DNA from: Saksenaea vasiformis B4078
Lineage: Eukaryota > Mucoromycota > Mucoromycetes > Mucorales > Saksenaeaceae
Direction: 5' to 3'
DNA: 44,841 nucleotides
NCBI GenBank assembly: GCA_000697055.1
Contig: JNDT01001601.1
Span: 1 to 44,841 of the forward strand
Shown here piece after piece: positions 280 through 44,841 of this stretch. Under the pieces are notes generated by a model, which worked only from the letters and a program-made list of their open reading frames with translations, was not told the origin of the DNA and made no database searches. A program made the translations under genes and the position numbers. Position 1 is the stretch's first letter; every line of letters begins with the position of its first letter.

Positions 280-2025
280 GATAGCGGTCTTTAAATAAAT
301 AAACGGAGTTTGAAACTGTCAGATTGAAACAACTCGCAAAAACTCTAGGTTATTGGCCGAATGCACCATATGATGCAGATCGCGTGTTACAAAGAAGTCG
401 AAAACCAAGGTTGCTATCAATAAAGCGGCAGTCATTCGGATCCTATATAGTTTATGCTCATGGCGCTGTCCTCCTTGTTATAACCAATTATGACCTAATA
501 TGGGAGAATAAATGTTTCTGTCGCCATAAAGAAAGAGGAATTTGCTTTGGATTGCATTTCCCATATCAGGTGTAAATCAAGTACCCTTTTATGTGTAGAA
601 AGATTTGCATTGTAATGATCCTCATATAAAGAACATGATATCCTTGTTTTCGGCTCTTTCCTTCTTCAAAGCAGAGAAATGCCTCTAGAAGAGAATCGAA
701 GCTTCCGTGTCACTACACTTTCGAACATGCGTAGTCCGGCTCAGTTACTGCAGGGAGATGGGCTTGCATATATAAGCCCGGTTCATCAGCATATCCTTAT
801 CAGAATACTTCATTTGAAAGGAGAGATAGAGAATATTCCGGTAACTTTACAAATTTGTATCTTCCTTTTCTGTTGTTTATTTACTTTCGTTTCAGCCGGC
901 GCTACTGTTACCAAAGTATCAACGATACTTTTCCTACCGGGATTACGGATAAAGTAACATTTGACAAAATCTGAAGTGAATTCGATCATTTTGTCGTGTA
1001 CGCATTCTCTATTTGATCCACAACGGCCTTTCGGCAATCGTCTCTTTTAGCATTATTTTCTTACAATGAGCACTGTCAACTGTCCTACCTTATTTTTTTT
1101 TTTTTTTGCAACAAAGAATCATTCCAATTCGTGTTCCGTACCTTTGCTGTCGACAGTGTCGAGCTGTACCTTAAAATTTTGTCAAGAAATGACTTCCGTC
1201 TGTTCTCCGAGCAGTGAGGAGAAATACGATCTTTACAGGTGGTATACTTCACGAGATAATATTTAATGGACATGTGTGTGTGAAAGGCGTCTTTGTATCA
1301 CAATCGCTATTTATGTAAACATATATGGCTCAAGGATGGAAGCGTGATTAAGGAAAACCTTAGCAGGATTGCGTAGGATGTGATATACTTATTGGGCCGT
1401 TCTGGGCCTTTACAAACCAAGACCAACGGTGACACAAAGATCTGCAATAACTTAAGATGCAACAATACAGGTTTTTAACTTCGGATTGGTGCTCTTAGCA
1501 AGATTTTATTTGCACGTCTCGCAAACTGAATAGGCGCATCCCACAGATGCAGTCGGTGCGCCTCACCAATACAATAGCTTATCTTCACAAGTACAATTGG
1601 TGCATCTCGCACATACTGTACAACCGGTGCCTTCATGCATAACGAACGAACAAATTAAAGAGAAAGAAGTAAAAAATCATAGACCTCTTGTCGAGGCAAA
1701 GTTGAAAGTGGTCCATGGCATGTCGAATCAATCCTTGACAATCTTCACTACGGGAAAAAAAAATCCTAACAAAAACATTTCCAAAATCTTGCAAAAACCT
1801 TACAAACCAATAAACTCCCAAGGTTTTTCCCGTAGTGCTTGGACACTAATTTGTATCGAAGCTTCTTTCATATGCACGAGGACACCAATTGTATTTGTGA
1901 GACGCATCCATTGCATCTGCGCGATGCACTTCTTTGGAGTTAAAATCCTGTATATATTTACCCTGCAGTTAACACCCGTAGACACCAAGTATTCTTCCTG
2001 TTTCTTGCCCTCTATTTATCTGCGA
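280..2025. other. Long intergenic stretch with one promoter-like, spliced-looking unit
   Basis: No convincing gene. A TATATAA lies at 768-775, followed by a good intron shape (GTAACT donor near 841, pyrimidine-rich tract, TTTCAG acceptor near 897), but no reading frame of useful length spans the join. Around 1110-1217 a short frame reads ESFQFVFRTFAVDSVELYLK and then stops; it looks protein-like but is unassigned. From about 1480 to 1930 there are loosely repeated GGTGCATC/GCGCATCC-type words near 'cgca' and 'acaattgg', possibly an old repeat. A second TATA at 1951 belongs to the next gene. Confidence 0.4.
1951..1958 (+). promoter_or_regulatory. TATA box of the first acyltransferase gene
   Basis: TATATATT lies 68-75 bases upstream of the ATG at 2026 and inside the long open frame that reaches back to 1597. 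If transcription starts about 30 bases downstream, near 1985, the upstream codons cannot be translated. This supports 2026 as the start. Confidence 0.45.
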
Positions 2026-3393
2026 ATGAGTAGCTATATAAAAGAACGAGAGCTTGGACCACAAGAGAAGTTTTATGTAGCCACCCAATTGCTCCATGCG
2101 TACGGTAGTGTCCTGCTGGCAGCTGAGTTACAACATACGTTTCGCCCGGCCAATGCACGGACGTTTTATCTCGAGAAAATCGGCGTAGCATTGACGAAGA
2201 TTATCAGCCGTCATCCACAACTTGCTCTCGCCGTTGCCGACAGCAATCGACCGTCAGTGCATTTTATACGTCTATTATCTATTGATGTAAGCCAGCTCAT
2301 CCATTTCGTCGAAGAACGCTATTGGGAAACAAAGGAAGACATCTTTGCTGAGGAATGTGATAATGAGTTCGATCTCACAGACACCAGTTTACCATTATGG
2401 CGGTTGCGCGTTAGCTTCCACCCGGAAAGACGTGATGAGTGCTGCATTACGCTGGTTATTAATCACGTTGTTGCCGATGGAATGAGCCTTACTACTTTTT
2501 GGCAGGAACTACTGCTATTTCTTAATAAGGAAGAATCAGAAAGCCTAATTGTTTATCTGCCTGGACCGATACCACCCCCCTTCGAAGCACGTAAACCGCC
2601 TACCGCAGGGCTTCTGGATGTACTCTTGTGCAGCTGTAAAGACATGCTGAGAAGACTGCCGCTGTACGGACGTTTTACCAACGAGCCTCTCTGGGCTGGT
2701 GACTATCCTGCAAAGAAGGACACGACGCACCAAACAGTCCTACGATTGGTACAATTGGGTGGCTATGAATGGGTATCTTTGGTCAAGAATGCCAGACAGC
2801 GAGGTGTTTCAGTCCATGCAGTGGTCTACACGGCGTTCGTATCGGCTTGGGCAGACGTGTACCCCGATTATCCTGCGTTGGAAGCCGGGATACCCATCAA
2901 CTGTCGTTCGTTTTGCCAGCCACCTGTACCGAGTAACGAGATTGGCAATTTCATCGGCGCCTATCTACCCGTCTGGTCACAACCTTTTCCAGAGTTTTGG
3001 ACAATGGCAAAGCTGTACTACCAGGGATTACAACGAAATAAATTGGCGGGAGCCAAATTGGCAACGTTTCTCAACTTTTTGCCAAGGTATCCCGATTCCT
3101 ACAAGGCAATATGGTACGAGAAAATGCAATGTCCGTTGGGAAGATCTGGTGGGATAGACGTGTCAGATCTTGGACGATTTGAAGCTCAGCAACAGCGATG
3201 GAAGGTCAAATCCATGTGTTTTTGTCAAAGCACGAATCCATTTTTAACAGCAATTCGAGCAAACACAATTACCACTAATGGGACGTTGCACGCTGCCATT
3301 ATTTGGCAAAAGGATGCAATGGATGAGAAAAATGCAGATAGATTAACGAAGCACTTTATACACCGTTTGAAAGCCGCAGCACAATGGAAGTGA
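2026..3393 (+). CDS. Alcohol acetyltransferase/condensation-domain-like acyltransferase, copy A
   Basis: A single-exon gene of 455 residues starting at MSSYIKEREL. The frame is open further upstream, to 1597, but those codons have no counterpart in the sister protein at 3708-5087, while residues 1-152 of the two align without a gap. The core motif is NHVVADG at 146-152. In the BAHD/condensation/alcohol-acetyltransferase superfamily the motif is (H)HxxxDG, with the second histidine catalytic; here H147, D151 and G152 are kept and the preceding histidine is asparagine. The C-terminal half (CQSTNPFLTAIRANTITTNG and what follows) has the look of the second half of such enzymes. No signal peptide or membrane helix is evident, so it is probably cytosolic. 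A likely role is O- or N-acyl transfer from acyl-CoA; the substrate cannot be read from sequence. Confidence 0.75.
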   Translation: MSSYIKERELGPQEKFYVATQLLHAYGSVLLAAELQHTFRPANARTFYLEKIGVALTKIISRHPQLALAVADSNRPSVHFIRLLSIDVSQLIHFVEERYWETKEDIFAEECDNEFDLTDTSLPLWRLRVSFHPERRDECCITLVINHVVADGMSLTTFWQELLLFLNKEESESLIVYLPGPIPPPFEARKPPTAGLLDVLLCSCKDMLRRLPLYGRFTNEPLWAGDYPAKKDTTHQTVLRLVQLGGYEWVSLVKNARQRGVSVHAVVYTAFVSAWADVYPDYPALEAGIPINCRSFCQPPVPSNEIGNFIGAYLPVWSQPFPEFWTMAKLYYQGLQRNKLAGAKLATFLNFLPRYPDSYKAIWYEKMQCPLGRSGGIDVSDLGRFEAQQQRWKVKSMCFCQSTNPFLTAIRANTITTNGTLHAAIIWQKDAMDEKNADRLTKHFIHRLKAAAQWK

Positions 3394-26760: not shown

Positions 26761-29700
26761 GTTCTAAAACAGCGATAAGTTTCTTTTGAGCCATTCAGTT
26801 TAAGTTACTAAGCACCATTGACAAGTGCATGCGTAACCTATATATTCAATACACCAACATTAGTCTTATTGTTCTTAATCGCTACGTATCTTTTCCATCT
26901 ATGTACCTCTTCTATCCGCATATTCTTTCTAAGTCGCTCAATATGATTTCGCATACTTCTTTGTGTCTCTCTGCAACCACTTCTTGCAAACAGCCTCTTC
27001 TTTCTCATGGCTTCTTCTTTCTTACTTTTATAGGTGTCTTTTTTTTCAGCATGAATACCTTCTTCACGAATAAACACTCCAAGGAGGGCTGCAACTGAGC
27101 AAAGCAGACGTCGCAGCTTGTATGTGTGTATCTCTTCTTTTCCGTGTCTCTTATCAAGTGCTCATACCAAATAGCACCCATTGCTGGTTCGTGGATTATT
27201 TAAGAACCCGTCGTACCAACTCGATCGTCTGATTCCGCAATGGATCCAATTACGATAGTCATGTCGACCTTGGAGCGGTGCCTAAAGCCTGTGATCGAAC
27301 GAGGACGCATCCGATCGAGTTACTCGGCCTTACTGGTAATTCGATTTGCGGCGATATATCGTCTTCAGAGACAAGCTGCGCACTGATTCCCCGACCACGA
27401 CGAGATAGCCAAAGATACGGGGTTTGGTGGAAAACTTCCCGATATCGACGTGATGAATGTGATGAGGCGTGATTGAGTGGCCGATGATACGTTCGCCGAA
27501 TACAATCGGCAAGATTGCCAAATCCTGTCCCATGTTCTCATTCAATACAGGAAACGGCATTCGATCACTTCCACATAGATCCGTGGGCTGGTGTATCGGC
27601 TTAGTCATACTCGGAGCAGATCTATCTGTCGAAATATTATGACCTCGAGCACTGGCACGTTTATGTGCTCGCCGAACCTTGTCACAAGTTCATCAAACGA
27701 GGGTACATAAGCGGAAGAAACGAAATGCGGTTCCGGAGTTAGTTGTTAAGAAGGGTTTGCATCTATGCGACTTCACGTCTGAGAACCCTCCGCCCGGGAC
27801 CTCCCTCTTTCGTACGGCAAGATTGTTGTTCAAAAGACGATCTCACTCGCGTCAGAAGCATCAAACTACAACCGCCAAACGATGTCATGCCACAAGCAAG
27901 CTTACGAGGGTCAACTTATCGCGACGGTGCTTCTTAGTCGTCGCATCTATTCCGATGTCGAAGACCAGTACCTGAAGTACGAGACGAAGAATGTATTAAC
28001 TTAACCTTTATGTTTCAAGAGGTTCTGGTTATCTACGCACGAAAGTGATTCGTTTGCATCAACGGGGATTTAAGAAACTTGGTCGTCTGGCGACCATACG
28101 CCTTTGACAAGTTCCCGCAGTTGCACCAGCTGCTCGAACGTACACACAGCTTCCACTCACTTTTAGTTGCATATGTCGTGTCTCATTAATTTGACTTCTA
28201 TTCCTGTAGAGGCATCTGTTTACAAAGAAAGCGACACCTATCCGGCGATAAAATGCTTGAAGTGCACATGGAAACATTTGCACATTAACATTGGCAATGG
28301 ACCGTGTCGCTTAGTATTCTACTTCTTGATTCCGCGCGTATATTGAGTGCTAACGAACAAACTTCATTCCTGCATTCTTTGCAACGTCATTCGTACGATT
28401 CATGTTCGTCTGTCTCGGGATGTTTTCAATAGCACTGTTGATTAACTGCAAAAAGCTCGAATAGTTTGTAGAGATTTATGCCAATGTGTAATTTAGTTTC
28501 GTCTCTATGTCTTTCTCGGTTTGTTCGTTTTGTTAAAGAAAAAAAAAGAAGAAGTTCAAAAAAGGGGTAGTTCCCACCAGTGGTGGCAACTGACTGATAA
28601 ATCCTCTCCGACGTGCCATCTCCCAGCCGATTTGATGCTCCAGGTTTTCCCTGCTGTATTTCTACCCTCGGGCATTTCCCCAGTATTTAACAACTTCCTG
28701 ACCCGGCTTAAGCGTAAGCCAGAATGTTGGACACCAATCTCTGAAAGACACTGTCATCGACAAGGCAACCAGCCAGCCGTTATTCCACCAATCCGATAAG
28801 TTCATCCCTCCATGACCGCTACTCAGCTTACAGGAAAACGCTACATTTCCCGGTCAATTTTTCATTCAAAATCGGATCCTATTTAAATGCCGACTTTTTG
28901 GCTTGTTTGCAACTTGTGGTTCGGCCCCGTCCAAAAATTTTTCTGCGATCGTAAATACGCTTCACATCCATGAAGAGACACCTTTGCTCTAATGAATACT
29001 GCGATTTTTTCTTAATACAGTCCTTTCCTTCTTTCAACTATTTGGTGCTGGTTCCGAAACTAACTGGACGTTGAGAAATAGTAATTTTTACGCACTGCAC
29101 CCTTGAATCTTGCGTGGAAGTAGATTTTTATACGTCAAACCAAAGTCTGCTATTCGTTGTTCTAGTGTCCAACTGTAACATTTGCTTTAGATGACGCTGT
29201 GTGTGATGGGTATTCAAAGGGACACATAAATATATAATTAAAAAAACCGTCCCTCTGAGGTATTGGTTCTTCAGAGAGTATCGAAAACGGTGAAGTTCGT
29301 GAAATTCGGTTATAGGTTTATTCTCGTCAAAAAGAACCAGGAACAAATATTACTAAGAATTCCTCTAAATAACCGACCTCAGCGGAGTGATGTCTTTTCT
29401 AATTGAGCAATGTTGTGTACGAAAAAGATATACAGACACGACACCCTCGCTATGTACTTTTGACGAAATACGCTCCACATCGCTCCCACCAGTTACGTCG
29501 TGGGATCGACTTTCAATATCGGCAGGATTATCCTTAGCAAACTGACATCCAATTGTGATCCCATTTACTAACCGTGAATATATACTACAGTGGGTGCATG
29601 TCATAATTACACCCTTGGTGAGAAAAGTTGATAACATCGCCGAGAATATAATCGCATCGAATTGGATGTCTACCACATAAGCCATCGTTTCTATTGACTC

Positions 29701-40911: not shown

Positions 40912-42852
40912 TTATAGCACATATCGAAAGTCAGGATGTCTATCTCCCGCGAGTTCAATACCACCATACCGGGCTATTTCTTTCTTTTTTTCTTCTTCAT
41001 CCATTGCATCACGACGCCGGTTCTCTCGTGCAAGAATAATTCGTATAATGATTGCTACTACACTTTGTGCTGTCATAAAGCCCAGAGCAATTGCGTGACC
41101 ACCGATGTAAAAGGGAGGATCTTTAGAGGAGCGTGGAGAGTTAAAATGACTTGATCATTCCCTGGGTACACAGCATACCATAATAAAATTGACCACCAAT
41201 AACCCCTCCGCAGGTGCCCACGGATACAATAACAGCAGATGCCACGGCACGTCGAGTGAGACCTCCACTAACGAATAAAGAGGTTACTGGGCATGAAATC
41301 ATAAAATAACGCTTGTACATACAAATTGTTACTGAACCATGCAATTTTGACAGCAACGTTAACATAGACAGAAATAGTTATGAGACAGGCCGCCACATAG
41401 TTTGCCGCCACATTGTCTCGAGGAACGAACATCAGCATTAGAAATCCCGCGATAGCGAGCATGTTTGTTCCAATCATATGATAAGCACGTTCAAAGAATT
41501 TGTCTACTTTGTGTTATCCAAATTGCTCTCCAGTACAGATGTTCATAGACTTACCAGAACTGTAGCCAACTGCTAGCGTTGCAAAATAAGCTAACAAATA
41601 TGGCGGTGTTGTCAAACCTTGTGCCACCGCCCTTGTCCACGAACCCATACCAGCAATAATAGATGGTAGGAAAAGGGTGACACCTTGAATTGCGCTTGAG
41701 CCCATAATATGAATGGTCATGAACGCGTAGGTCTTCCAGTCTGTAAACACAAGTGCTACTTGCTTCCAGGACCAAGAATGATCGTCGGAGGTGCCAGCGT
41801 CTATTATTAAAATGTCACCAGACCGTGCGCTACTGTGATAGGAACAAATAACATTTACCAGCGGCAAGATGACCAACAACATACTCTCGTTCTTCTGATG
41901 TTAAAAATTTAGCGGTTTCTGGAGAGTCAGGCAAGTACCAAACGGCAAAGAAGGAAACCAGAATAGATGGTAAACCTTCAATGATAAAGAGCCTAAGAAG
42001 AAAGACTGTAAGCGCTCAACCGCGTTAGCTCTAGATTCTACCATTGCCATGTACGTAGTGCATAGTTTGGTATTTGACTAATAGCATATGCAAGCAAACC
42101 TCCAAATGCACCAGCAAGTGATCCAAACGACCAAAAGAAAGCTATTCTGCGACCGTACTCCTTGCGGGTGTACCACAGCGACATAAAGTAGATTACACCA
42201 GGGAAAAAACCTGCCCTCGGTCGTCAAAAGTTTGTCTATCATTAATATATACTTCATCGTTTACTCTTCCTACCGGCTTCAAAGACACCAAGCAAAAATC
42301 TTGCCACGGCGATGCCTGCAAAATTTTGACAGGCGGCCATAGCAGTCGCAATTGTACCCCATGACCTAAACAAATGGTCAATGTCTGTAATTACGTTGTG
42401 TTATTGCTTGCCCTGCTAGTAACGCTAGCCAATAGGATGGACGCCAGCGTCGCATAACAATGTTGGAGGGAACATCAAAAATGATATATCCAAAGAAGAA
42501 AATCGAAAGGGTCCACTGATATTCTAGCCTTGTCATACCGAGATCTGTGTCGAGTCCGCCCAATTTCGCATTGCCAATGTTGGTTCTAGCACTGCGTTAA
42601 CTTGTTTGCTTTTACCCTGTACAAGCTCACCGATCAATGTGACACCACAAATACAAGAAGCATAGGACTGGCAGAACACGAAGATCAATTTTTCTGGCAT
42701 TTACATGAGAAGACAATAGATGAAGTTTTAATTTACCGGAGAACTCTGGATCGCAAACATTTCTGCTCCACCGGTAATGGATTCTCTTGCTCTTTCGATC
42801 CGATCACCTTTTCATTGGTAAATGCTTGTTTGTTGTCAGCTTCTTCGTACAT
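40912..42852 (-). CDS. Major facilitator transporter of the Dal5/allantoate permease (anion:cation symporter) family
   Basis: Ten exons on the minus strand: 42852-42737, 42693-42631, 42591-42412, 42365-42274, 42210-42042, 41992-41859, 41800-41555, 41506-41323, 41267-41179, 41120-40912; 1482 nt, 493 residues. Family blocks continue across joins: RKIDLRVLPVLCFLYLWC/HIDRARTNIGNAK, FFFGYIIFDVPSNIVMRRWR, RFLLGVFEAG/FFPGVIYFMSLWY, LPDSPETAKFL, REYVVGHLAA/DAGTSDDHSWSW, WFSNNFGGLTRRAVASAV and the end DRHPDFRYVL. About 12 membrane helices are expected. Relatives in yeasts carry allantoate, nicotinate, pantothenate, biotin or thiamine precursors across the plasma membrane; substrate here is unknown. 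The intron at 42366-42411 uses a GC donor (GCAAGC). A TATATAG lies near 42906, before the start. Confidence 0.9.
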
Positions 42853-43806
42853 TTCAAATTCGTTAGTAGGGCAAGAACAGTAAGTATCAATCACAAATCA
42901 TTCTTATATAGGTCAAATCATTCTAACCGCCCAAGTCCTCCACTCGTAGGGGGCTCTCGGCCGCTGCTTCCTTGTCTTCTTTTTTTCCTTTCTGGGCCCT
43001 GGACGACGTAAATATTCAACCGAAAACTGGTATAATGGAAAACAGCATAAACGGCAACGATAGAAACTGGGTATTGGAGGAAGATCATAAGGTTACCACT
43101 GATGTACATCGTAAAGGTAATCGTGGGAGACGATCTATCGGCTTGCGTTCCTATCCCTCTATATAAACATGATTTCTGAGACTTCTATGAAGGTGTTTGC
43201 AAAGTCATCGTGCTGTAGCACTCGACAAACATGCGCGCTTAACACATATGCAAAACGCAGATACGAAGTATTCCGGTAGACTTGGGATTCTACCGTGCTC
43301 CTCCGTGATCGAGGCTCACAAGCTTCAGAATTTGGGTGCTTGTTCTAACGGGCTCAGTCTAGGTTTCTTTTTTTCCCTTACAATCATTTGGACTTCTAGA
43401 TCCTCCCCGAAAATGCATTATCCTGGTCAGCTCCACCGTTCATTGTTTTGTCTTTTATGTTCAGAGTGAGGGATAACCTCACTGTCTCGGCAACGCACAC
43501 TTCATTCATTCCAAGTTTGGTAACATGCACCCGATCGCAATTTCCGATAACGTCCGAAAAGTACTTTATTCGACGTTTCTTTTTCTTTTCCAAGTTTCAC
43601 GAAATCGGATTGTAATCGACCACCTCTGTATCCCGGAGGTTTCACTTCCGCCAAAATTATGTCCATCTTCTTGTTCAGCGGCCTGGCAAATGCATGTAAT
43701 CGGCTCTGTACAGTCACCTGACAAAAAAAAATTGTCAATAAAATACTCGATGAAAAAAAAAGGCTTACCTGTAAGCATCTACTGTTTTTGTTACAGCGAG
43801 ATATGA
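42853..43806. other. Region between the transporter start and the Fanzor 3' end
   Basis: Contains the transporter promoter side (TATATAG near 42906) and the 3' flank of the Fanzor gene. In Fanzor and TnpB elements the guide RNA is usually made from the 3' side of the nuclease gene, so 43500-43806 is where one would look; I cannot identify it from sequence alone. Small frames here (for example LQSDFVKLGKEKETSNKVLF near 43590 on the minus strand) are unassigned. Confidence 0.35.
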
Positions 43807-44841
43807 TCAGCGTTGAAACACCAATGGTCGGCCTTGACCAAGTGACGAGCATGTTGCAAGCTTGTGTATGTTTCTGCTGGCGTTGACATCGCGTTGCCAT
43901 AACGTGCCACAGGTTTGGCAACAGAGCACGCTATGCAGCGTTCCGTACGCTTCTTCGTTCAGTCGTAAGTTTTCCATGTTCTTTTGCTGACATCTGGAAC
44001 ACACCTAAGTATCCTCGATAATATGGAGTGTCTCCATGTGTTGTCAATATTACCTTTGACGTGTTGTACTCGTCCACATTGACCATAACAAGTAAACCGG
44101 CATTTTCTGCCTTTTTCAGAAGAACTCGACAGCGATCAGCCAGTCCAGAGATCTTGCCGCGCATGTTCGTTTGGAATGTGGCATTCCCGAATGCAACCAA
44201 AGGGATCCTGTCTGGCATTGGCCGTAGTGGTGCTTTTCGCCATTTCTGTTTCTGTGATCGTGGACGCCTACCAACCAAAGAGAATTAACAGCGCTGCCAA
44301 TTAAGTGTAACTGCCATACTTCTTCTCCCTTGCCCGTTTCCTATACGTGAAAATAAAAAAAAAGTTAGTCAAGCTCATATTACAATTTGAAAGGCACATA
44401 CTTTTGTTGCTTCTTCTTTCTCCAGGTCTTCCGTTTCTGTTTCAGACCGCGTAGATTATATTTTTTGCCACCATCAAGCAGTATGATGAGAAGTTCAGCC
44501 CCAGCCCGCTGCTTGCCAATATAGTTCAAGAATCGGAGACTTGCAAGCCTTTCATCATAGAAATCAAATAGCTGCTCCAGATTTGGCAATAGTGATTCGA
44601 GGTAAGTTGCCATTGTCTCTGGATTTGCTGTCTTCCGCGTTGTGATCTCCTGTTCTACTGCAAGGATTTCGTTTTCGCGCTTCATTCGCAGGATATTCGC
44701 ATTCGTCTTCTTGTACCCAGCCATGACATAAAACTCTGCTGTGGACATCTTCGAATTTCATGAGGTTCTGTACTATGACCATTACTAGCTACATAAATCT
44801 CCGTCATCCCCGGGTCAGCTCCCCATAAGTCGAATACGTTA
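43807..44841 (-). CDS. Fanzor-type (eukaryotic TnpB-like) nuclease, 5' end outside the window
   Basis: Minus strand, running off the right edge. The visible exons are 44841-44402, 44340-44320, 44267-44054 and 44004-43807, with introns of 61, 52 and 49 nt. All phases fit from the STAEFYVMAGYKKTN block to the stop. Features in order: WGADPGMTEIYVASNGHSTE (RuvC-I, Asp at 44816-44814); RFLNYIGKQRAGAEL, then DGGKKYN; a basic stretch (KQKRKTWRKKKQQK/KRARE); PLVAFGNATFQTNMRGKISG; VNVDEYNTSK/VCSRCQQKN; VLCCQTCGTLWQRDVNASRN, which carries the zinc-ribbon cysteine pairs and the RuvC-III Asp (43890-43888); end GQGRPLVFQR. This is the TnpB/Fanzor C-terminal layout, and Fanzors act as RNA-guided DNA nucleases. 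The RuvC-I segment and the STAEFY block are out of frame by one base, so there is a 1-nt deletion, an assembly error or a missed intron near 44750. Confidence 0.82.

Follow-up and report, generated by a model that had tools for sequence, protein, structure and literature searches.

Fanzors are the eukaryotic counterparts of TnpB and Cas12, and are RNA-guided DNA-cutting enzymes. The gene described here lies at the end of a contig of Saksenaea vasiformis B4078 (JNDT01001601.1), and its closest described relatives are SpuFz1 of Spizellomyces punctatus (PDB 8gkh) and the Fanzor genes of mariner-type and mucoralean transposons. The Spu-1 elements of S. punctatus are bounded by inverted repeats, have a gene followed by a scaffold, and include protein-less 'ghost' copies; downstream of the stop codon comes the scaffold, which runs through the 3' repeat, and the adjoining flank provides a guide of 14-15 nucleotides (nt) (PMC10432273). 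The PUl-4-type Fanzor-only mariner elements (Bao and Jurka 2013) carry the Fanzor1 gene alone between mariner-like inverted repeats with TA duplications, and in MCi-2 of Mucor circinelloides the subfamilies differ in their 5' part and have a near-identical 3' Fanzor region (PMC3627910). The mucoralean Fanzor elements named alongside MCi-2 in that paper are MuDr-type or unclassified. A mucoralean Fanzor1 with a solved structure is PpFz1 of Parasitella parasitica (PDB 9cf0/9cf1), which has an insertion that binds cyclophilin. To our knowledge, going by their name prefixes, the mariner cases named alongside PUl-4 are not mucoralean. Mucoralean Fanzors, Fanzor1 genes carried by mariner-type elements, and derivatives that lack the protein have all been published already.

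The window analysed is the entire contig (G000:C291, 44,841 base pairs, bp), and the searched genome has 38.7 Mb in 666 contigs. We estimate a probability of about 0.78 that positions 43709-44841, on the minus strand, are the 3' part of a Tc1/mariner-type copy containing a Fanzor1 gene with introns, in which no transposase gene was found, followed by a 3' guide scaffold. The likeness to SpuFz1 is one of protein and layout. The SpuFz1 locus is about 2.1 kb long with a single open reading frame, whereas the Saksenaea family has introns, paired elements of 3.8-6.8 kb and relatives of up to 948 residues. MCi-2 differs in having duplications of 11-12 bp and no recognizable inverted repeats (PMC3627910). 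The gene is composed of the following features.

44751..44840, minus strand: RuvC-I exon piece (NVFDLWGADPGMTEIYVASNGHSTEPHEIR) with DPG codons at 44808-44816; it runs off the contig, is aligned with homologues, and differs in frame from the next exon
44402..44748, minus strand: Fanzor exon MSTAEFY...KKKQQ, downstream of a one-base frame break; aligns to homologues P0001-P0005
44341..44401, minus strand: intron 1, 61 nt, GTATGT..TATAG
44320..44340, minus strand: short basic exon KRAREKK
44268..44319, minus strand: intron 2, 52 nt, GTATGG..GGTAG
44054..44267, minus strand: exon RPRSQKQKW...DEYNTSK, with the RuvC-II Glu codon at 44069-44071 (homologue alignment)
44005..44053, minus strand: intron 3, 49 nt, GTAATA..CTTAG; absent from paralogue L063
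43807..44004, minus strand: last exon, with zinc ribbon and RuvC-III, Asp codon at 43888-43890 and stop codon at 43807-43809

All three introns are of the GT..AG type, and the splice joins are supported. Removal of intron 3 joins DEYNTSK to VCSRCQ, then CCQTCGTLWQRDVNASRNI, and the score of the Pfam TNB domain rises from 27.9 bits in the last exon alone to 50.3 bits (E 2.8e-13) across the join. At this place the paralogue L063 (C484) reads NTSKVCLACLQ without interruption, and the tblastn matches of the Mucor flavus homologue P0002 split at residue 885, the intron 3 point, in seven loci (L013, L020, L023, L024, L027, L032 and L062); a single gapped match spans this residue in L014, L056, L059 and L067. 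Because of the rise in TNB score, the intronless reading of L063 and the split in P0002, we consider the intron 3 join real, and the three minus-strand introns with motif-restoring joins proposed in the initial annotation of this locus are borne out. An alternative intron 2 starting at GTTACA was ruled out, as GTATGG preserves the frame. The absence of intron 3 from L063 and its presence in relatives represent intron gain or loss inside one transposon family.

The RuvC triad is completely encoded and aligned with homologues, with D in DPG, E in DEYNTSK and D in WQRDVNA. The DPG motif is a RuvC-I hallmark of Fanzor1 (PMC10711439). The window model reads E-x6-CxxC-x23-CxxC-x6-D, that is, a relocated RuvC-II Glu six residues ahead of the zinc finger, then the RuvC-III Asp; PMC10711439 used a search pattern with a spacer of 12-18, shorter than the 23 of the zinc finger here. 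Sixteen homologues were found, eight of 745-948 residues and eight of 364-727 residues (among which fragments are possible), so that the earlier description of the enzyme as compact is doubtful. A profile built from nine of the 16 (A7, the window protein not among them) matched SpuFz1 among the PDB chains with E 3.9e-21, aligning the RuvC/TNB half (profile positions 352-723), and GtFz1 with E 1.2e-6; no PpFz1 chain is among the 15 A7 matches listed at E up to 1. Single-sequence searches of PDB gave a best E of 0.046. Overall, a Fanzor1 (OMEGA-type) nuclease gene with introns and mucoralean affinity is supported: no search placed the protein in an unrelated family, and a relation to characterised Fanzor1 enzymes was found through A7. 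The Fanzor identity and mucoralean type claimed initially therefore stand, but the gene belongs to a large transposon family and is not a new single gene. When viral contigs were searched with the last exon, 13 stretches fitted the pattern and none was confirmed. Among the homologues, P0015 of Thamnidium elegans (727 residues) has Myb-type Pfam domains and 75% identity to the Fanzor query over 24%, and is either a fusion or an annotation artefact. Elsewhere in the genome, a TNB match (G000:C419:64464-64676, minus strand) lies inside a stop-free open frame of 772 residues.

The RuvC-I DPG reported upstream is indeed present, but it is out of frame with everything downstream, with a one-base break before the MSTAEFY exon. 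Among eight other aligned copies, this break is common to L020 and absent from L021, L022, L023, L024, L026, L038 and L041. An assembly error in a one-base run could account for it, although the sharing with L020 argues against this. An extra intron linking DPG and MSTAEFY was ruled out, as seven more distant relatives (L034, L056, L057, L058, L059, L062 and L063) read through the site unbroken. With P0002 as yardstick, the contig end at 44841 leaves about 650 of 948 residues missing from the N-terminal side. Being truncated and frame-broken, the window copy as assembled cannot make a whole enzyme; it is very probably dead, and is itself a case of ordinary decay. The initial interpretation is partly supported.

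Downstream of the gene, the end of the element is defined by three features.

43711..43722, minus strand: 3' terminal inverted repeat (..GTCAGGTGACTG), the element end
43709..43710, no strand: TA at the element border, a Tc1/mariner-type target duplication with its partner TA off the contig
43689..43708, minus strand: flank predicted to supply the guide of the window copy, from the SpuFz1 layout and the element end

Ends in CAGT flanked by TA are features of Tc1/mariner transposons. Mariner-like inverted repeats and TA target duplications are described for Fanzor elements in PMC3627910. Nine copies, including that of the window and the 79% identical relative L034, end at the same base, with GTCAGG..ACTG (ATTG in L022) followed by TA and then unrelated flanks, and many further copies share this end. 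A search for the terminal repeat with up to two mismatches gave 100 sites, compared with 42 for a reversed-pattern control. Eight elements have both terminal repeats on one contig around a Fanzor match, with inverted repeats that begin CAGT and are flanked by TA; their lengths were computed by subtracting coordinates.

Paired elements: C633 (4,115 and 3,810 bp), C641 (4,220 bp), C538 (6,781 bp), C438 (5,756 bp), C391 (4,308 bp), C282 (4,249 bp) and C206 (4,348 bp)

An internal match to TACAGTTACTTGACAAC in L024 and L026 was rejected as a 5' repeat, as, judging by its position, it lies inside the Fanzor reading frame. Of 30 distinct 3' flanks (34 rows less four dropped as probable chance hits to coding regions), 23 have G or C directly after the TA; the G+C content of the examined loci is about 43%, which makes a target-site preference possible. 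In the window, the element is inserted next to an open frame (43502-43708, minus strand, ..MDIILAEVKPPGYRGGRLQSDFVKLGK..). This frame has no Pfam hit with E of 1 or less and may belong to a gene from a different family that has been disrupted.

Regarding the transposase, no DDE_3 match lies inside the eight paired elements among the matches listed (at least 157; best 150 of 237 candidates scored), and the 5' parts of L013 and L014 have no Pfam domain at E up to 1. As no DDE transposase of its own was found, the window element is classed as a non-autonomous Tc1/mariner-type element. DDE_3 matches on C325, C658 and C254 are located 0.5-0.7 kb inside a terminus equal to the 5' repeat of the paired Fanzor elements (identical on C325 and C658, with a single differing letter on C254), and all three carry internal stops. 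We infer that the Fanzor elements moved by means of a mariner transposase supplied in trans.

The family is large, with at least 48 DNA-search matches in the genome (best 40 of 47 candidates scored) and at least 137 Fanzor TNB matches. Seven copies besides that of the window span nearly all of the 3' part, with 94-97% identity. The type A copies tested (L020, L023 and L024) match P0002 from about residue 213 onward, and L025 has an internal deletion upstream. Starting at query base 359, the type B copies (L014, L027, L028, L029, L030, L032 and L044) are 94-98% identical to that of the window, and they differ from type A in their 5' part; the three tested (L014, L027 and L032) match the C-terminal Fanzor region only. 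Two shorter derivatives, on C461 and C269, have a common internal junction (340 to 952). These derivatives and types A and B resemble the MCi-2 subfamilies (PMC3627910) and the ghost copies of Spu-1 (PMC10432273). In L013, a further TNB-like fragment, which reads WNRDRNASRN, lies upstream in reverse orientation (about 1890-2084, minus strand).

It is possible, but in our view unlikely, that the whole family is a relic, with Fanzor and mariner partner both inactive and the window copy in plain decay, which would exclude present activity and not the Fanzor1 identity. The frame break and truncation of the window copy, the stops in the three DDE_3 matches and the commonness of deleted derivatives, two with one shared junction, would all be explained in this way. 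However, the similarity of the seven near-full-length copies, in different flanks, points to a fairly recent spread, the frame break is absent from seven of the eight aligned copies, and the open frames in L063 are 249 and 377 residues long. The copies also show a synonymous excess: across the four segments of exon in the 3' part, nine aligned sequences have 21, 24 and 49 variable columns at codon positions 1, 2 and 3, respectively, and single changes from the commonest codon comprise 43 synonymous and 43 non-synonymous (descent-shared changes counted repeatedly). One internal stop is present in each of L022 and L023 within these segments. The initial view that the gene is not simply junk consequently holds for the family, and not for the window copy.

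The 96 nt between the stop codon and the element end (43806-43711) contain two further features, of which the first is the better supported.

43782..43796, minus strand: SL1 hairpin CTGT-AACAAAA-ACAG, candidate omega-RNA scaffold; model R1 match at 43780-43798, 25.2 bits
43763..43776, minus strand: SL2-like inverted repeat GCTTACAGGTAAGC, longer in L063 than in the window; the evidence is weaker

We scanned 36 distinct 150-nt stretches located 3' of WQRDxNAxRN-type motifs, many of them close copies, for the best 7-nt match to AACAAAA with up to two mismatches, ignoring the stem and settling ties by the longer stem. A stem of at least 4 bp was found at the best loop match in 29 of the 36, compared with 3.6% of shuffles and 22 of 580 control tiles (150 nt, window positions 1-43,600, both strands). 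In ten distinct sequences all five pairs vary on both sides, and 96% of the cells pair, against 65% when shuffled; the covariation score of 0.907, against 0.251, was reached by none of 500 shuffles, which do not preserve relatedness, and sliding the partners lowers pairing to 16-60%. Omitted from the ten were L076 (tied, with a different loop), L028 (loop one base shorter), those with no motif-scan match (L037, L045-L048, L057 and L069) and those with no hairpin (L003, L005, L006, L007 and L015, plus a fragment nested in L013). When 37 of 79 sources were scanned with a covariance model built from the ten, 21 of them each had a single match at E below 1, and the matches checked against gene positions, in the window, L069 and further listed copies, lie directly 3' of a Fanzor reading frame or remnant. 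L057, L048 and L047 have a match though absent from the model and unlike its rows; the match in L069 is identical in its letters to L072. At gathering thresholds, Rfam has no hit within the element. SL1 is probably part of a guide RNA.

Several results weigh against the assignment of a Fanzor1 gene in a mariner-type copy with a 3' guide scaffold. Profiles of close homologues alone matched nothing at E up to 1, or SpuFz1 at E 0.43, so the sequence link to Fanzor1 depends on the more distant homologues in A7. The fold comparison, in which homologue P0013 folds like SpuFz1 and Fanzor1 is the top match, used a model of that homologue and not of the window protein, with a mean predicted local distance difference test score (pLDDT) of 61. 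Some copies (L030, L037, L047 and L055) finish before reaching the terminal repeat. Because the contig does not include the 5' end of the window element or the flank beyond it, the target duplication of this element is not seen. As the loop was the search criterion, its conservation across subfamilies is partly by construction, and the stem alone is independent. Seven of the 36 stretches have no hairpin, including the whole subfamily of L003, L005, L006 and L007, and 16 of the 37 sources, among them L037 and L045, have no model match at E below 1. Finally, the folding energy of the hairpin region is unremarkable in 14 sequences (z -2.0 to +0.8), of which L063, L011 and L072 do not form the hairpin in their minimum-energy folds.

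The folding results and the subfamily without hairpin, together with a location past the stop codon and ahead of the inverted repeat, a place that signals for 3' end formation also occupy, would suit a rather improbable alternative, namely that a Fanzor1 relative has the hairpin as a cis element of messenger RNA or DNA (3' end formation, transposase binding) while the enzyme works otherwise. Against this, the covarying stem indicates an RNA stem rather than a DNA-binding site, the position fits the SpuFz1 scaffold, where about 75 nt separate the stop codon from the point at which the 3' inverted repeat ends (PMC10432273), and Fz1 omega-RNAs have a common first stem loop bound by RuvC/TNB (PMC11423790). 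In the subfamily of L003, L005, L006 and L007 (CTSC.TVWQRDINASRN), CTTACAGTTGTAAG follows the TNB motif, and the scaffold may differ.

A bacterial-type TnpB, Cas12f or Fanzor2, perhaps as contamination, is highly improbable, for although the family libraries recognise the short TNB domain alone and NCBIfam names TnpB and Cas12f2, all below cut-off, the motif-restoring introns, the mucoralean homologues, the Glu ahead of the zinc finger and the top rank of Fanzor1 in profile and fold (Fanzor2 chain 9b0l at E 1.4e-5 in the profile search and 7.9e-3 in Foldseek) speak against it. No Fanzor2 chain is among the 50 VIA-align rows listed, which shows nothing against a Fanzor2 relation.

Under the Fanzor1 and guide-scaffold assignment, positions 43806-43711 would specify a scaffold that starts with the AACAAAA-loop hairpin. 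In intact copies the 3' transcript would be processed to an omega-RNA composed of the scaffold and about 15-20 nt of flank past the border; for the window copy, we predict a guide from 43708 downward on the minus strand, because the order of stop codon, SL1, SL2-like repeat, element end and TA matches the S. punctatus layout. The omega-RNA-bound Fanzor would cut, beside TA, an allele or sister that has no insertion, and the element would be copied back by repair templated on the occupied copy, with excision and insertion carried out by a Tc1/mariner transposase in trans. The transposon could gain from such cutting of empty TA sites and the repair that follows, in analogy to what the discussion of PMC10432273 proposes for TnpB. 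More tentatively, and at somewhat less than even odds, the scaffold signature of mucoralean Fanzors may be a compensatory-drifting stem under a conserved AACAAAA-like loop 77-94 nt past RuvC-III, used by many subfamilies and kept in truncated or protein-less derivatives, which would form a genome-wide pool of trans-acting guides, with each insertion supplying one that is directed against empty TA sites.

Fanzors are a known enzyme family, and the hairpin signature is a useful new detail. The signature and its covariation were not met in the parts examined of PMC3627910, PMC10432273, PMC10711439 and PMC11423790; figures and supplements aside, the strings AACAAAA and covariation are absent from the main texts of PMC11423790 and PMC10432273. 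With its numerous TNB matches, clean mariner-type ends, deleted derivatives and covarying hairpin, the genome offers many natural guide/target pairs, suited to asking whether Fanzor biases transposon inheritance, and the sequence signature provides a route to scaffolds without RNA sequencing.

Outside the element, the window has a signal recognition particle RNA at 28560-28854 on the minus strand (Rfam RF00017, 113.4 bits). Also on the minus strand, at 42038-42596, two open reading frames match the major facilitator superfamily (MFS) transporter family PF07690 with E 1e-5 and 2.8e-5, below the curated cut-off, and are probably exons of one spliced transporter gene.
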